This document shows positions 7,356 through 13,371 of a stretch of DNA of 64,000 nt, piece after piece. A model generated the notes under the pieces. The model worked only from the letters and a program-made list of their open reading frames with translations. It was not told the origin of the DNA and made no database searches. The stretch is from positions 1 to 64,000 of the forward strand of contig NZ_AFHI01000019.1 of the NCBI RefSeq assembly GCF_000217935.1. The letters are read 5' to 3'. The stretch comes from Rheinheimera sp. A13L. Lineage in GTDB: Bacteria; Pseudomonadota; Gammaproteobacteria; Enterobacterales; Alteromonadaceae. Both the position numbers and the translations under genes were made by a program. Each line of letters opens with the position of its first letter. The first letter of the stretch is position 1.

Positions 7356-7631
7356 CTACCCCGGAAACTGCTGCTTTTGATGCAAAACCCGCATTACGCG
7401 AATAGTTGAACCATCAACCCAATAAGAAACTATCATGGATACTTCAGGAATGATCAGCAAACGACCACGGACCGAAGCGCGCTGAACACCCATAAGTGGG
7501 TGAGCCAATAGATTTTCGACTTTGGCTTCGAGCAGTTCATCGGTTTTTTCAGCGGCTACAGGGTTTACCGCATAAAGGTATTCAAAGATTTTTTCCCTGT
7601 CGTTCAGCGCTTCGTCTTCCCAGTAAATCAT
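7356..7631 (-). CDS. RelE/ParE-superfamily toxin
   Basis: This 91-aa protein has the layout of type II RelE/ParE toxins: an N-terminal W-E-A-L segment, a helix with IFEYLYAVNPVAAEK, the HPLMGVQR turn, a GRLLIIPE strand, and a C-terminal IRVMRVLHQKQQFP. Family members are mRNA interferases (RelE, YafQ) or gyrase poisons (ParE), and the sequence does not settle which. The start codon overlaps the antitoxin stop by 4 bp, so the pair is translationally coupled with the antitoxin first. Confidence 0.85.
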   Translation of the reverse strand: MIYWEDEALNDREKIFEYLYAVNPVAAEKTDELLEAKVENLLAHPLMGVQRASVRGRLLIIPEVSMIVSYWVDGSTIRVMRVLHQKQQFPG

Positions 7632-7912
7632 TCCTTAGCTCTACTGCGAATTTTAGCTTTGCGTGCTGCCATGCTGATTTTCGCTTGTTCGTGGCTGACA
7701 AACTTCGCATTACCTGTATCCAATTTTTCAAAGGCAGCATTTACTTGCTCTGTGAGCCATTGATCATGGGCGCTGACTTTTCGTTGTTCAGCAGCGAGTT
7801 GCTCAGTGAGCTGGCGACAGGCATCACTTAAAGTCCGTCCCTGACTTTCAGCCATCAGCTGAGCAAGGCGTTTGGTTTCTTCATCAACACGAAACTGAAT
7901 TCTGGTTTCCAT
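7628..7912 (-). CDS. RelB/DinJ-like ribbon-helix-helix antitoxin
   Basis: This 94-aa protein begins METRIQFRVDEETKRLAQ, then the helix-turn-helix-like GRTLSDACRQLTEQLA, the ribbon-helix-helix pattern of RelB/DinJ antitoxins. The C-terminal half is charged and rich in Ala, Lys and Arg, suiting a disordered toxin-wrapping tail. The ATG at 7912 was chosen because the ribbon strand starts immediately; an upstream start at 7963 adds 17 unlikely residues. It overlaps the toxin gene by 4 bp. By analogy it represses its own promoter in 7913-8050. Confidence 0.82.
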   Translation of the reverse strand: METRIQFRVDEETKRLAQLMAESQGRTLSDACRQLTEQLAAEQRKVSAHDQWLTEQVNAAFEKLDTGNAKFVSHEQAKISMAARKAKIRSRAKE

Positions 7913-8115
7913 AGCAAAAGACTCGAGGTTTAGTGTGTGTACAAATGTTAGCACTGAATGCATGTGTGAGCCAAATCAGGTTGCCAGGTTGCACTGGCGC
8001 TCCGCTCTGGGTACAACCTACAACTCCATGTCGGTGGCGCTGAAAAACCTGGTTGAAAAACTATGAAAAAGAGCTTAAAAAGTTGGGCAGAGCTTGTCAG
8101 AAAACCAGAGCTTTT

Positions 8116-8382
8116 ATGCCAATATCCCATTTTGATGAGGTTGTTGCTTTGTCTGAGTTGAAACAAAACCTGGCTCAGGTAGTTCGGCTCAGCAAAGTCC
8201 TGCGTAAGCCAGTGCTCTTGACGAGCAAAGGACAGGATGTCGCTGTCCTGCAAGGGCTGGATGACTACACAAAAACAGCAGAAGAATTAAGATTTATAAA
8301 AGCTGTAGCAACAGGTATGGCCAATATTGCTTTGGGTCACACTTTGAGTCTGGAAGAAACATGCAAACTTTCTGATAGATGA
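8116..8382 (+). CDS. Orphan Phd/YefM-family antitoxin
   Basis: The 88-aa product starting at the ATG at 8116 has the Phd/YefM fold signature: an N-terminal VALSELKQNLAQVVRLSKV helix, the PVLLTSKGQDVAVLQGLDDY strand-turn-strand, and a C-terminal acidic tail with GMANIALGHTLSLEET, as in Phd proteins paired with ParE or Fic-type toxins. Phd-type proteins neutralise a toxin and bind their own operator. No toxin reading frame follows in the 210 bp before the usp gene, so this looks like an orphan or the remnant of a degraded pair. An upstream in-frame start at 8053 is possible but adds Lys-rich sequence unlike the family. Confidence 0.75.
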   Translation: MPISHFDEVVALSELKQNLAQVVRLSKVLRKPVLLTSKGQDVAVLQGLDDYTKTAEELRFIKAVATGMANIALGHTLSLEETCKLSDR

Positions 8383-8502: not shown

Positions 8503-8544
8503 TTGATATGTATCAAAACCTTTGATAGAAAAGCTGTGTAGTAT
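8503..8544 (+). promoter_or_regulatory. Class II FNR-type promoter of the usp operon
   Basis: TTGATATGTATCAA at 8503-8516 is a perfect match to the FNR/ANR consensus TTGAT-N4-ATCAA. Its centre (8509.5) is 41.5 bp upstream of position 8551. A TAGTAT -10-like hexamer sits at 8539-8544, exactly -12 to -7 for that start point. This is the classical geometry of a class II FNR-activated promoter and predicts oxygen-limited expression of the operon that begins at 8596. Confidence 0.85.
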
Positions 8545-8595
8545 CAGGTGGTTCCAAAACACATTTTTAACTGTTTTGTTCAGGAGGACAGGGCG

Positions 8596-9561
8596 ATGAA
8601 AAGATTCAAGAACATTTTGCTTGTAGCTAAACCTCAGTGCGAGCACCCCTTTGAACTTGAAGCTGCGCTGACACTGGCTGAACAAAACTCTGCGGAAATT
8701 ACCTTGCTGATGGTATTACCTGCTCTGAGTAGCTTTCATCTGATTAAACCAGAGCGGCCGCAACAGGACATAGAAAAAGACTATGTTCAGCATCATTTAA
8801 ACGAGTTACTGGCAAGGGCAGGGCGGTATCAGCAACGCGCTGAAATTCGCTGCAAAGTAGTAATAGGTACTGAATTTCTTGAAGTGATCCGCTCTGTTTT
8901 GCGTAACCATCACGACCTAGTGATCAAAACGGCTGAGCCTGCCAGTTGGGTGAAACGGCTGTTTGGCGGCACTGATATGCACTTGCTGCGTAAATGCCCT
9001 TGTCCTTTGTGGTTACTCAAACCTGATGTGGCGCCCAACTACAGCAAAATAGCGGCTACAGTAGATTTTAATCCGGACGAGCCACAAAGTGTCGAGCAAC
9101 CACTGAACAAACAAATCCTCGAACTGGCCAGCTCCATTGCTATCCACAATTCGGCCAGTCTGCATATTTTGCATGCCTGGCAGGTAGAGTCTGCCGGAGT
9201 GGTACTGATGTGGAGCGACAACCCGGAAAGCGCTGAAGCTGAGTACAATCAAAGCCTTTTTTCATCTCACCAGGCCGGCATCAACAGATTAAAACTGCTG
9301 ATGGCCAAATGGATTGGGCAACAAGCCTACGACTACTGCACTCCTCATTTCGAGTTACTGCGGGGGGACGCTTCACATATTCTTGCCAAAAGAGTAGAAG
9401 AACTGGACCCTGGCTTAGTTGTTATGGGCACTGTCGCCCGAACTGGTATTGCCGGATTTCTGATCGGAAACACAGCTGAAGCTTTACTGGAGCAGCTGAA
9501 TTGTTCAGTGTTGGCAGTCAAACCTCTGGGTTTTGTGACTCCTGTTACGCTTGAAGAATAA
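8596..9561 (+). CDS. Tandem-domain universal stress protein (UspA family)
   Basis: This 321-aa protein has two UspA-type domains. The first begins MKRFKNILLVAKP and runs to about residue 145. The second runs from about 155 to the end and contains LHILHAWQVE and the C-terminal GTVARTGIAGFLIGNTAE, which resembles the ATP-binding G-2x-G-9x-G(S/T) loop of UspE/UspF-type proteins. A strong ribosome-binding site (AGGAGG) supports the ATG at 8596. Its gene leads the DUF1538, P-II and CBS genes, with only 26 bp to the next one, behind the FNR-type promoter at 8503-8544. Related Usps act in anaerobic survival in Pseudomonas under ANR; the same role here is inferred. Confidence 0.88.
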   Translation: MKRFKNILLVAKPQCEHPFELEAALTLAEQNSAEITLLMVLPALSSFHLIKPERPQQDIEKDYVQHHLNELLARAGRYQQRAEIRCKVVIGTEFLEVIRSVLRNHHDLVIKTAEPASWVKRLFGGTDMHLLRKCPCPLWLLKPDVAPNYSKIAATVDFNPDEPQSVEQPLNKQILELASSIAIHNSASLHILHAWQVESAGVVLMWSDNPESAEAEYNQSLFSSHQAGINRLKLLMAKWIGQQAYDYCTPHFELLRGDASHILAKRVEELDPGLVVMGTVARTGIAGFLIGNTAEALLEQLNCSVLAVKPLGFVTPVTLEE

Positions 9562-9587
9562 GTAGTAGATGAGCATTAATTAAGCGA

Positions 9588-11087
9588 TTGATTTTCAGAA
9601 GGAAACCAACAATTTCTAACGCATTTTTTCACCAGCTGCTGCATGCGTCTAAAAACCTGCTTCCGATAGTAGTTGTTGTGCTGTTTTTCCAGCTGGCCGT
9701 ATTACAAACCGTGCCTGAAAATCCTTTTGAGCTGATGCTTGGGCTGGCTATTGTTGCGCTGGGTATTGCCTTATTTTTGCAAGGGCTTGAGCTCAGTATC
9801 TTTCCCGTCGGCAAAAATCTGGCTAATCAGTTTGCACTAAAAGGCTCATTGCCACTTTTGGTCGCTTTTGGTTTTGCCATAGGTTTTGCTGCTGTGGTGG
9901 CAGAGCCTGCACTTATTGCTGTGGCCGAGCAGGCTCAGGTGATTAGCGAAGGGCGTGTGAATGGCTTTACTTTAAGGCTGATAGTTGCTTTGTCGGTGGG
10001 CGCTGTGGTGGCGCTTGGCATAGTGCGCACTGTGATGGGCTGGGGTATTCAAAAGCTAATGATAGTGGGTTATTTGTTAGTGCTGACCGTGACATTTTTT
10101 GCTCCTGCAGAAATAGTAGGCCTGGCTTATGATTCAGGTGGAGTCACCACTAATATAGTCACTGTGCCGCTGGTTGCAGCTTTGGGCATTGGGCTGGCGA
10201 ATTCCATAGCAGGCCGGAATCCATTGCGGGACGGTTTTGGACTGGTTGCGCTGGCGGTGATGGTGCCAATGATTACTGTGCAGTTGTATGGCATTTGGGT
10301 GTATCAGTTTAGTGATGTTCAGGCTGTGCCCGTGGCTGCCCTTGTCGCGGAATCCCGGCACTGGCTGGTGACAGTGCTGCTTGATTTAGCCTCGCTGATC
10401 AAAGATGTATTGCCCATTTTAGTGGTCGTGCTGTTTTTCCAGTATCTGGTGCTGAAACGCTCGCTGGCTAATCCGGTGCGGGTGGCCTTTGGTTTTGTGC
10501 TGGTACTGCTGGGTTTATACGCTTTTGTCATTGGCCTGAAACTGGGCTTGTTCCCCATTGGTACTTTAATGGCTGAACAGTTGATAGGCCAAAACCAGGC
10601 AAGCTGGATCTTGTTATTTGGTTTTATGATTGGTTTCGCCACTACTATGGCGGAACCTGCCTTGCTGGCTATTGGCGAGCAAGCCGAACAAGCCGCACCT
10701 GGTAAAATTAAAGCAAAAGTGATCCGCCTTATGGTGGCACTGGGGGTAGCTGTTGGTATAGCTGTAGGTGTATACCGCATCATGGCGGGCACACCAATCC
10801 ACTATTACATTATGGCGGGTTACGCTGTGGTGGTGTTACTTACTGTACTGGCTCCGGATTACATTACAGCGCTGGCTTTTGATTTGGGTGGAGTCACCAC
10901 CTCTGAGGTGACTGTGCCGCTGGTTACAGCGCTTGGTATTGGTTTAGCCAGTTCCATTGAAGGGCGTAATGTACTGATTGATGGTTTTGGACTTATCGCT
11001 TTTGCTTCTATTTTTCCAATTATCAGCGTGATGCTGTATGCAATTGTTGCAGAAAAACTCAGTTTAATGAGGAAACAACCCAGATGA
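9588..11087 (+). CDS. Duplicated DUF1538 integral membrane protein, putative transporter
   Basis: This 499-aa, highly hydrophobic protein is built from two homologous halves (about 24-245 and 270-490). Both halves repeat LPI-VVVLFFQ, then AEPAL-A--EQA, then GGVTT---TVPLV-ALGIG, then GRN----DGFGL. I recognise it as the DUF1538 family, whose function is unknown to me; roughly 12-14 membrane segments suggest a channel or transporter with pseudo-twofold symmetry. The start used is a TTG at 9588 with no clear ribosome-binding site, so the N-terminus is uncertain. Its stop overlaps the P-II gene by 4 bp (ATGA), indicating coupled translation and a probable physical partnership. Confidence 0.85.
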   Translation: MIFRRKPTISNAFFHQLLHASKNLLPIVVVVLFFQLAVLQTVPENPFELMLGLAIVALGIALFLQGLELSIFPVGKNLANQFALKGSLPLLVAFGFAIGFAAVVAEPALIAVAEQAQVISEGRVNGFTLRLIVALSVGAVVALGIVRTVMGWGIQKLMIVGYLLVLTVTFFAPAEIVGLAYDSGGVTTNIVTVPLVAALGIGLANSIAGRNPLRDGFGLVALAVMVPMITVQLYGIWVYQFSDVQAVPVAALVAESRHWLVTVLLDLASLIKDVLPILVVVLFFQYLVLKRSLANPVRVAFGFVLVLLGLYAFVIGLKLGLFPIGTLMAEQLIGQNQASWILLFGFMIGFATTMAEPALLAIGEQAEQAAPGKIKAKVIRLMVALGVAVGIAVGVYRIMAGTPIHYYIMAGYAVVVLLTVLAPDYITALAFDLGGVTTSEVTVPLVTALGIGLASSIEGRNVLIDGFGLIAFASIFPIISVMLYAIVAEKLSLMRKQPR

Positions 11088-11440
11088 AATTCTCCGCTAT
11101 TGTTGTGATTGCCCCTGATGATCTGGAGCAGTTAGCCATAGAAAGAGCCAGAGCAGCCGGTGCCACAGGCATTACTATTTTGCAGGGCAGGGGCATTAGC
11201 AACAGCTCTAAAAAAACCTTTTTTGGTATGACCTTTGAAGGCAATCAAACGGTGTTTTTGATGTTGGTAGCGCGTCATATTGCCTTGCCAATTTTAAAAG
11301 AAATGAAGCAAGTGCTGGTAAAGGACGGCGATTCCAGAGGCATAGCTTTTACTTTGCCTGTTGAACACCTGATTGGAGTTGATGTAGACCAGATTGCAAA
11401 ATTCGAACAACAGTTGCGTGAGCAGCAACAAGAGGAGTGA
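11084..11440 (+). CDS. Divergent P-II-family signalling protein
   Basis: This 118-aa protein matches the P-II ferredoxin-like fold: strand 1 FSAIVVIAPDDLEQLAIERARAAG, the ITILQGRGIS segment before the T-loop position, and GIAFTLPVEHLIGV near the C-terminus (compare the PVE---RI motif of GlnB). The T-loop is short and lacks the uridylylated tyrosine region of GlnB/GlnK, so nitrogen-type modification is unlikely. P-II-like proteins often bind and gate a transporter encoded next door (AmtB-GlnK, SbtA-SbtB). Overlap with the DUF1538 gene suggests the same relationship here; the ligand is unknown. Confidence 0.8.
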   Translation: MKFSAIVVIAPDDLEQLAIERARAAGATGITILQGRGISNSSKKTFFGMTFEGNQTVFLMLVARHIALPILKEMKQVLVKDGDSRGIAFTLPVEHLIGVDVDQIAKFEQQLREQQQEE

Positions 11441-11443
11441 TGT

Positions 11444-11839
11444 ATGAAACAGCAGCTCGTTAACGATCTAATGGTACGTCAGGTGATTAGCATCAGTGCT
11501 TTTGCCCCGATCCGGGAAGCCTTGTTACTGATGAAAACACATAAAGTAAAATGCCTGGTAGTGGACAGGCAGTCGGTACACGACGCCTATGGCATTATTA
11601 CGTACAGCCATATATTAAAAACCATTATTGCTGAGCAAGGTGATATAGATTTAATTAACGTGTATGACGTTTGCACTAAGCCTGCCATTCATGTTCACTC
11701 CGAACTTGCAGTGAAACATGCCGCAGAGCTGTTAACTCAGCATAAAATCAAACGTTTACTGGTGCTGGATAACAATCAACTGGTGGGTTTGCTGACGATG
11801 GATGATTTGGTCAGCAATGTATTTCGTTTGTTGGACTAA
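11444..11839 (+). CDS. CBS-pair protein
   Basis: A 131-aa protein consisting almost only of two CBS domains (about 8-65 and 75-130). Visible pattern elements are VNDLMVRQVISI, DAYGIITYSHI, and in the second repeat HKIKRLLVLDNNQLVGLLTMDDL. CBS pairs bind adenine nucleotides such as AMP, ATP or S-adenosylmethionine and report energy state. It starts 3 bp after the P-II gene, as the last gene of the usp-DUF1538-PII-CBS operon. It may supply a second nucleotide-sensing input to the membrane protein, which is inference. Confidence 0.85.
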   Translation: MKQQLVNDLMVRQVISISAFAPIREALLLMKTHKVKCLVVDRQSVHDAYGIITYSHILKTIIAEQGDIDLINVYDVCTKPAIHVHSELAVKHAAELLTQHKIKRLLVLDNNQLVGLLTMDDLVSNVFRLLD

Positions 11840-11892: not shown

Positions 11893-13371
11893 ATGCGCCA
11901 GCAAGCCATTTTATCTATAGACCAGGGCACTTCTTCCAGCCGGGCTTTGTTATTTAACCGGGACGGCAAGGTATTGGCTGTGGCGCAGCAAGAGCTGGAT
12001 TGTGTCTATCCACAACAAGGCTGGGTAGAGCAAGATGCAGAGCTGATTTGGCTCTCTGTGCTTAAGGTGTGTCGGCAGGTTTTAGCACAAGCCGTGCAGC
12101 TGGGCATTGAAGTACTGGCTGTCAGTATCAGCAATCAGCGCGAAACTACAGTGCTTTGGCATAAAGCCAAAGATAAAGTGTTAGCTCCCGCTATTGTCTG
12201 GCAAGACAGACGCACAGCAGACTATTGCCAGCAGCTTAAAGATCAGGGCCATGAAGCTCTGGTGCAGCAAAAAACTGGTTTATTGCTTGACCCTTACTTT
12301 TCTGCCAGCAAAATTCAGTGGTTACTCACTCACAATGCCGATGTGCAGCAAGCTTTGGCTCAAGGCGAATTGGCTTTTGGCACCATAGATAGTTTTTTGC
12401 TTTGGCGTTTAACTTCAGGCCTGGTGCATGCCACAGATACGACCAATGCCAGCCGCACTTTATTGCTGAATATTCAAAGCTTAAGCTGGGATCAAGAACT
12501 GCTGCAGTTGTTTGGCGTGCCTGAGCATATTCTGCCGCAGGTAAAACAAAGCGCTGATTCGTATGGGGTCTGTGACACCCGCTTATTTGGTTTGGCCTTA
12601 CCTGTGCTGGCGCTGGTGGGCGATCAACAAGCTGCGGCTTTAGGTCAGGGCTGTATCAGTGCAGGTTCGTTAAAAAGCACTTATGGCACAGGCTGTTTTG
12701 CCTTATTAAATACCGGCTGCAACCCGTTGTTTTCTAAACACAGGTTACTGACCACAGTGGCTTTTACTGTGCAGGGCCACACTTTTTATGCACTTGAAGG
12801 GGCCATTTTTGTCGCTGGTGCAGCAGTCAAATGGTTGCGTGATCAGCTGGGTGTCATTAGTGAAGCCAGTGAAACAGAAGCGTTGGCACAAAGTTTACCG
12901 GATAACGGTGGAGTGTATTTAGTGCCGGCTTTTACTGGTTTAGCTGCACCACACTGGCAACCTGAAGCAAGGGCTGCTTTGGTAGGCATGACACTGGGCA
13001 CAGGCAAAGCGCATATAGCCCGCGCTGCCTTGGAAGCAGTGGTCTATCAGACTGCTGATTTATTCTCTGCCATGCAGGCTGATGGTGCCAAGGTGCAGCA
13101 GTTGCAGGTTGATGGCGGCATGGTGGCAAATAACTGGTTATGTCAGCATCTGGCTGATGTATTGAATATTCCAGTGCTTAAACCCAGTCAAAACGAAGCT
13201 TCGGCTTATGGTGCTTCGATACTGGCAGCTGTGCAGTTAGGCTGGATTGAAAGTCTGAATGCTGCGCCATTCAGCGCTGATGCTCAACAATTTTTACCGC
13301 AGATGTCAGTTGCTAAACGCCAGCAGTTGCTAAGCGGCTGGCAGAAAGCTTTGGCTTTGGTGCTCGGTTAA
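11893..13371 (+). CDS. glpK: Glycerol kinase
   Basis: GlpK phosphorylates glycerol to sn-glycerol-3-phosphate. The 492-aa FGGY-family protein begins AILSIDQGTSSSRALLF (phosphate-1 loop) and has SNQRETTVLW, the substrate-specifying WQDRRTADYC, the adenosine-site STYGTGCFALLNTG, and the signature LQVDGGMVANNWLCQHLADVL. This pattern fits glycerol kinase rather than xylulokinase or other FGGY sugars. glpF and glpD do not adjoin it, which is unusual. It follows the CBS gene by 53 bp but may have its own promoter. Confidence 0.92.
   Translation: MRQQAILSIDQGTSSSRALLFNRDGKVLAVAQQELDCVYPQQGWVEQDAELIWLSVLKVCRQVLAQAVQLGIEVLAVSISNQRETTVLWHKAKDKVLAPAIVWQDRRTADYCQQLKDQGHEALVQQKTGLLLDPYFSASKIQWLLTHNADVQQALAQGELAFGTIDSFLLWRLTSGLVHATDTTNASRTLLLNIQSLSWDQELLQLFGVPEHILPQVKQSADSYGVCDTRLFGLALPVLALVGDQQAAALGQGCISAGSLKSTYGTGCFALLNTGCNPLFSKHRLLTTVAFTVQGHTFYALEGAIFVAGAAVKWLRDQLGVISEASETEALAQSLPDNGGVYLVPAFTGLAAPHWQPEARAALVGMTLGTGKAHIARAALEAVVYQTADLFSAMQADGAKVQQLQVDGGMVANNWLCQHLADVLNIPVLKPSQNEASAYGASILAAVQLGWIESLNAAPFSADAQQFLPQMSVAKRQQLLSGWQKALALVLG

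Follow-up and report, generated by a model that had tools for sequence, protein, structure and literature searches.

In the known pairs of a PII protein and a transporter, GlnK with AmtB and SbtB with SbtA, the T-loop of the PII protein docks on the cytoplasmic side of its partner (PMC8352866, PMC10710835). The SbtA-SbtB complex has been solved with AMP (PMC8352866, PMC10710835), the SbtB T-loop partly blocks the SbtA transporter (PMC8352866), and the uptake of ammonium, nitrate, urea and bicarbonate is known to come under PII control (PMC10710835). A separate family, DUF1538, includes UmpA and UmpB of Halomonas zhaodongensis, which when co-expressed form a heterodimer with Na+(Li+,K+)/H+ antiport activity (PMC5484666). 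The four-gene operon considered here lies at positions 8596-11839 of a 64,000-nucleotide stretch of Rheinheimera sp. A13L DNA (contig NZ_AFHI01000019.1, positions 1 to 64,000; the window). On balance, it probably encodes an FNR-induced, UmpAB-like antiporter gated by a dedicated SbtB-like P-II protein, with a CBS pair as an optional second sensor.

The four genes lie on the same strand and encode a universal stress protein (usp, 8596..9561, +), a UmpA-UmpB-like double DUF1538 membrane protein (9588..11087, +), a P-II-like protein (11084..11440, +) and a stand-alone CBS pair (11444..11839, +). A gap of 26 bp separates usp from the DUF1538 gene, the ATG of the P-II-like gene overlaps the DUF1538 stop by 4 bp, and 3 bp separate the P-II-like and CBS genes. 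This order, with its coordinates and spacing, agrees with an earlier model reading of the sequence (the original prediction). The same reading had described the DUF1538 protein as an internal duplication, and two copies do score separately, a UmpA-like domain at 9666..10295 (+, 222 bits) and a UmpB-like domain at 10416..11048 (+, 234 bits); likewise, the CBS pair that it had named contains two CBS domains (Pfam PF00571, 79.9 bits in two stretches).

Comparison with described systems

As in this operon, a transporter and a PII-like protein are encoded together in the SbtA-SbtB system, but SbtA is a trimeric Na+/bicarbonate symporter (PMC8352866), whereas the partner here is a DUF1538 protein. 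SbtB is the top structural match of the PII domain found in natural fusions (see below), although the CGPxGC loop of some SbtB proteins is impossible in the window protein, which has no cysteine. SbtA-SbtB has no CBS component and, to our knowledge, no covalent fusion. AmtB offers a second parallel, in that the PII protein which gates this membrane transporter is the product of a neighbouring gene (PMC10710835); unlike GlnK, the window P-II-like protein lacks tyrosine and the GDGK and RTGE motifs, and canonical P-II genes stand separately in the genome. In CorB and MgtE a CBS pair is a nucleotide-sensing add-on to a transporter (PMC10710835), whereas in the window it forms a small protein of its own, which part of the family lacks. 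Finally, UmpAB of H. zhaodongensis shares the protein family, the DUF1538 repeats and the UmpA-UmpB order (PMC5484666), but the window version is one fused polypeptide, scores below the equivalog cut-offs and sits with P-II, CBS and usp genes and an FNR box. The main text of PMC5484666 contains no occurrence of P-II, PII, GlnB, CBS or FNR.

A transporter under a co-encoded PII protein is a known kind of system; the papers reached by the searches contain no cation/proton antiporter that is controlled by PII or has PII built in. We know of no PII-controlled Na+/H+ antiporter. Among the matches listed in a literature search on DUF1538 or UmpAB with PII, CBS, antiporter or fusion, most subscription papers and preprints being outside its reach, the pairing is undescribed; P-II is absent from the main texts of PMC12093952 and PMC13255231, and PII from that of PMC10030654.

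Linkage, co-occurrence and fusion of P-II and DUF1538

The partnership of P-II with DUF1538 proposed in the original prediction is borne out by a genome-neighbourhood comparison, in which the two stand side by side at the majority of loci in each of the three phyla sampled and are naturally fused in some; P-II is the regular partner and CBS a frequent third gene. Among 299 genomes drawn from the window's phylum, DUF1538 is present in 116 and the P-II-like subfamily (detected with profile A3 at E 1e-6) in 118: both occur in 109 genomes, DUF1538 only in seven, P-II only in nine and neither in 174. The subfamily therefore accompanies DUF1538 in 109/116 genomes against 9/183 without it, contrary to the lack of co-occurrence that would have spoken against the proposal. 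The gene immediately after DUF1538 is P-II in 94 of the 100 units read for the phylum, in 35/35 units of the window's family and in 62 of 79 units of a named set (the best 80 out of 583, a choice weighted towards the nearest relatives of the window), with fusion in 15 more named units. The remaining two named units differ: in L109 P-II and CBS precede DUF1538 within one gene run, and in L110 there is no P-II. As for the six phylum misses, one (L154) has a P-II gene immediately upstream, three genomes (G084, G093 and G121) have a P-II-like gene elsewhere, and in the genomes of the last two (G245 and G172) none was found.

Two added samples, with one locus per genome, comprise 200 genomes of what we take to be Campylobacterota and 246 of what we take to be Actinomycetota (centred on L099 and L069). 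DUF1538 occurs in 29 of the Campylobacterota genomes, all with linked P-II: behind in 18 (one weak, L341), fused in nine, and in front together with CBS in two. Among the Actinomycetota it occurs in 17 genomes, with P-II behind in 16; the 17th locus runs off its contig, and another fragment of the same genome has the pair. Five of these genomes show a single DUF1538 match, still with P-II behind.

Natural UmpA-UmpB-PII fusions are found in fifteen named loci and in 9/29 Campylobacterota genomes with DUF1538; Poseidonibacter ostreae (L099) supplies one example. In eight of the 11 fusion genomes searched, the fused copy is the only P-II-like match (E 1e-6); a separate match is strong in G491 and G493 and weaker in G489. 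Moreover, the linkage reaches closer relatives of the tested antiporter, since split UmpA and UmpB genes that approach the curated models are likewise followed immediately by a P-II-like gene: those of a Nitrincola locus (L036) score 421 and 489 bits, and UmpB of a Halomonas genome (L389) 491 bits, all still below the cut-offs. Because of linkage, co-occurrence and natural fusion, the UmpAB-like antiporter appears to be the likeliest target of the P-II-like protein.

Loci ending right behind DUF1538 or with fewer than 150 aligned residues were dropped before counting (L055, L067 and L098 of the named set; L214, L218, L224, L228 and L232 of the phylum sample), and the additional, divergent DUF1538 loci found in G679 and G698 did not enter the counts. 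The family count uses loci of 35 of the 45 DUF1538-positive genomes of the window's family. From the 116 positive phylum genomes, 103 loci were used for the phylum count; G000 and G007 belong to other counts, and a further 11 genomes fell outside it. Of these 11, eight have P-II adjoining DUF1538 by match coordinates, and G218 and G272 offer fragments only. The last, G116, lacks a P-II gene next to DUF1538 (L282) and carries its P-II-CBS pair on a different contig (L279). Because the samples share ancestry in part, none of these counts represents independent events.

As a separate observation, six loci (L036, L038, L049, L056, L064 and L100) have P-II-like genes both before and behind the DUF1538 gene or gene pair, and the upstream copies read in them differ from the downstream ones.

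The DUF1538 protein

Membership of the window protein in DUF1538 is clear (Pfam PF07556, 443 bits against a cut-off of 22.6, in two stretches), and it is the only DUF1538 protein that a profile search finds in the genome. It combines a UmpA-type stretch (residues 12-236) and a UmpB-type stretch (residues 267-492), whose scores miss the equivalog cut-offs of NCBIfam NF041627/NF041628 (438 bits against 490 for UmpA, 370 against 500 for UmpB). By sequence it is a UmpAB-like fused relative and, by curated cut-offs, no UmpA or UmpB equivalog. The statement in the original prediction that no function was described for DUF1538 was wrong in view of the Na+(Li+,K+)/H+ antiporter of H. zhaodongensis (PMC5484666). 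With a demonstrated antiporter among the members of the family, cation/proton exchange is the likely activity of the window protein.

It is also conceivable, though unlikely, that the double DUF1538 protein moves something other than Na+ or K+, such as an organic ion, and shares only ancestry with UmpAB. The scores below the curated cut-offs agree with this, as does the presence of one biochemically tested pair in the DUF1538/UmpAB literature found. Set against it are the AEPAL, GGVTT and DGFGL segments, invariant in 16 aligned DUF1538 domains, and the inclusion among carriers of species of Halomonas and Thioalkalivibrio, which are salt- and alkali-tolerant. DUF1538 is among the key genes tabulated in a machine-learning study of optimal growth pH (PMC13255231), an independent hint of a link to pH or ion homeostasis. 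Neither the protein nor its profile retrieved a convincing relative in a sequence search of the PDB.

The family has further forms. A divergent fused class of about 600 amino acids (L206-L223, L281 and L341) is followed at most loci by one or two weakly matching P-II-like genes. In Actinomycetota loci L355-L359, a single-domain DUF1538 gene precedes P-II and its product is perhaps a homo-oligomeric relative of UmpA and UmpB. In the window, the DUF1538 frame has no ATG near its beginning, and TTG 9588 has no evident ribosome site; ATT 9612 stands behind AAGGA, within one or two residues of the starts of relatives, and possibly this rare codon is the true start.

The P-II-like protein and its possible ligand

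The P-II-like protein scores 23.3 bits with Pfam P-II (PF00543), just below the cut-off of 25. It is modelled as a PII (ferredoxin-like) fold with a low-confidence loop at residues 39-45, and the model matches GlnK1, TTHA0516 and SbtB (best Foldseek E 2.4e-06); by predicted fold it belongs to the PII superfamily. As had been noticed from the sequence, the tyrosine loop of GlnB is lacking: the protein contains no tyrosine, and in 192 distinct P-II-like domains (>95 bits) the loop pattern was matched in 161, none with tyrosine. Canonical P-II proteins carry a GDGK B-loop and an RTGE C-loop. The window protein has no GDGK B-loop, and among the 192 domains DGK occurs in one and an RTGE-like C-loop in none; an alignment to a GlnK agrees with the absence of the canonical residues. 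On the residues of all three loops (T, B and C), identity with canonical GlnB or GlnK was rejected; the genome has two canonical P-II genes elsewhere. SbtB proper was likewise rejected, as the neighbour is DUF1538 and not SbtA.

Beside loop 39-45, the stand-alone P-II-like proteins share a strongly conserved K-T/V-F-F-G segment. SbtB heads the structural matches of the fused PII domain, for which the VIA rows of the model run from residue 529 to residue 635, and solved SbtB complexes contain AMP, ADP, ATP and cAMP. It seems possible that the same gate answers to bicarbonate, cyclic di-AMP (c-di-AMP), a cation or pH rather than to ATP, ADP or AMP, a version that we rate no higher than the transport of another substrate. 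The missing GDGK and RTGE motifs speak for it, and the fold matches do include CPII with bicarbonate and SbtB with c-di-AMP; on the other hand, the SbtB complexes with adenine nucleotides and the end of the companion CBS pair, presumably an adenosine-binding motif, favour an adenine nucleotide.

The CBS pair and the universal stress protein

CBS follows P-II in 49/81 phylum units, 34/35 family units and 62/62 named units with a separate P-II. The assignment of the CBS gene to the P-II/DUF1538 set is upheld by its frequency as third gene, and these neighbourhoods mark the CBS pair as a component that is common without being indispensable. The second CBS domain of the window ends in GLLTMDD, which fits the pattern G-h-h-T-x-x-D that we take to mark adenosine binding; in a set of 147 distinct CBS stretches that includes truncated ones, a loose form of the pattern lies near the end in 89 and in the first half in 68.

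The first gene, with an ATG behind AGGAGGA, encodes a tandem, UspE-like protein (Pfam PF00582, 93 bits in two stretches) that remains under the NCBIfam UspE cut-off (160 bits against 227). Usp genes follow CBS in two Oceanospirillum loci (L035, L043), are divergent in L067 and L068, belong to the gene run of L109 and L337, and lie near the locus in L073 and in Actinomycetota L348, L357 and L358. From this distribution, usp appears to be an occasional, lineage-specific companion of DUF1538, with a putative link to the system.

The FNR box

The perfect FNR box TTGATATGTATCAA announced in the original prediction is present at 8503..8516, 79 bp before the usp start codon. Its placement 41.5 bp before a transcription start is less secure: a -10-like TAGTAT at 8539..8544 (+), read by eye, would put a putative +1 near 8551, and a sigma-70 scan gave no site at the predicted start. 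Perfect sites of the TTGATATGTATCAA type number 22 in the 4.52-Mb genome, against 0 for the reversed control pattern; 9 of the 15 inspected lie inside open frames of at least 150 codons, a caution against over-reading the box by itself.

The case for FNR control gains from its recurrence in relatives, where the box precedes the antiporter gene. Regions of 300 bp upstream and 60 bp of frame were reduced for similarity from 210 to 198, some near relatives remaining. The perfect palindrome occurs in 11/198, the window included, and each of 19 half-site rearrangements in 0 or 1; with up to one mismatch the figures are 41/198 and 0 to 7. At this tolerance, matches amount to 23/33 in the window's family (controls: mean 1.1, maximum 3), 7/40 in named, mostly gammaproteobacterial loci (mean 0.2, maximum 1), 6/36 in named, mostly Campylobacterota loci (mean 1.3, maximum 3) and 4/88 in the rest of the phylum (mean 1.3, maximum 4). 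The identical one-mismatch site TTGTTTTAAATCAA in several family matches represents one inherited promoter. The genome encodes Fnr (L298) with C-x2-C-x5-C and the recognition helix TVETISR, which we take as its marks. FNR control thus seems to have been kept in the window's family and in certain other Gammaproteobacteria, but not to be universal. In the window the box stands before usp, which fits usp as part of the transcript.

Proposed mechanism

Gene content, protein families, P-II linkage, natural fusion and the recurring FNR box were observed, and the following mechanism is proposed from them. At low oxygen, FNR would raise transcription of the operon. The UmpA-UmpB polypeptide would exchange Na+ or K+ for protons, and the P-II-like protein would dock on its cytoplasmic face, the conserved loop region being a natural candidate for the contact, and open or close the antiporter in response to a small molecule that it binds, an adenine nucleotide being the likeliest by analogy with SbtB. 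The CBS pair may be an additional adenylate-type sensor in part of the family. With such gating by energy state, loss of the proton gradient through the antiporter would be prevented at low ATP, and exchange would be available but throttled in the energy-limited cell.

A wider proposal, whose chances we put slightly short of even, is that the whole DUF1538/UmpAB family consists of P-II-gated cation/proton antiporters, in which a dedicated SbtB-like subfamily, sometimes built in covalently, senses the energy state and throttles the antiporter, protecting the proton-motive force when oxygen and ATP are low. As PII proteins are trimeric, three UmpA-UmpB units would then make up the working antiporter, in place of a simple heterodimer.

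Several points weigh against the mechanism proposed for the operon. The canonical PII nucleotide residues are absent, so that nucleotide binding is uncertain, and scores below the UmpA and UmpB cut-offs mean that the substrate may differ. The KTFFG segment is altered to NFY-R in the fused PII domains, and the fusion model gives no interface evidence. UmpAB of H. zhaodongensis was active in E. coli from a two-gene clone alone (PMC5484666), so that a cognate P-II was dispensable for activity there. DUF1538 units without a neighbouring P-II exist (L030, L110, L195, L197, L205, L211 and L282), and CBS follows P-II in only 49 of the 81 phylum units. Outside the gammaproteobacterial sets FNR boxes scarcely exceed the controls, and the 23 family matches are not independent, as near relatives and genus members share one promoter. 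DUF1538 is also sporadic, the window's genome being the sole carrier among eight sampled in its genus. The suggestion of an oxygen-limitation-induced transporter with two nucleotide-responsive regulators is sustained in part: P-II linkage, the frequent CBS and the FNR box favour it, and a nucleotide response of P-II is uncertain.

Less likely than another ligand or substrate is that the antiporter serves as sensor or anchor, UmpAB holding P-II at the membrane until, once released, it acts elsewhere, as in GlnK/AmtB. PII proteins with several targets are known (PMC10710835). In addition, the same P-II subfamily is found away from DUF1538: in one family, two genomes have a P-II-CBS pair next to a malic enzyme/phosphotransacetylase gene (L278, L279) and the pair of a third lies on a contig that lacks DUF1538 (L280), and P-II-like genes directly precede an ETF-ubiquinone oxidoreductase (ETF-QO) gene in L264, L265 and L266. 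A released P-II is hard to reconcile with the tethered PII of the fifteen named loci and nine of 29 Campylobacterota genomes, or with the eight of 11 fusion genomes in which no other P-II-like match is found. That usp, DUF1538, P-II and CBS are functionally unlinked chance neighbours is very improbable: Usp lies near DUF1538 in few other loci, but for DUF1538 and P-II the linkage, co-occurrence and fusion counts led to its rejection.

Surrounding genes

Just upstream of the operon lie a ParE-type toxin gene with a weakly RelB-like partner (7356-7963, -) and a separate Phd/YefM-type antitoxin gene (8053-8382, +). Downstream, glpK starts at 11893, 53 bp after the CBS gene (glycerol kinase, 623 bits against a cut-off of 590). 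No similar DNA was found in plasmid records at blastn sensitivity.

Implications

If the operon encodes a P-II-gated antiporter as proposed, small-molecule signalling, probably by adenylates, would be tied directly to ion gradients and pH homeostasis in many bacteria, and an unannotated P-II-like subfamily would acquire a function. The natural antiporter-PII fusion would then be a convenient object for structure and transport assays, and the system as a whole would represent a signal-gated valve on the bacterial ion gradient.

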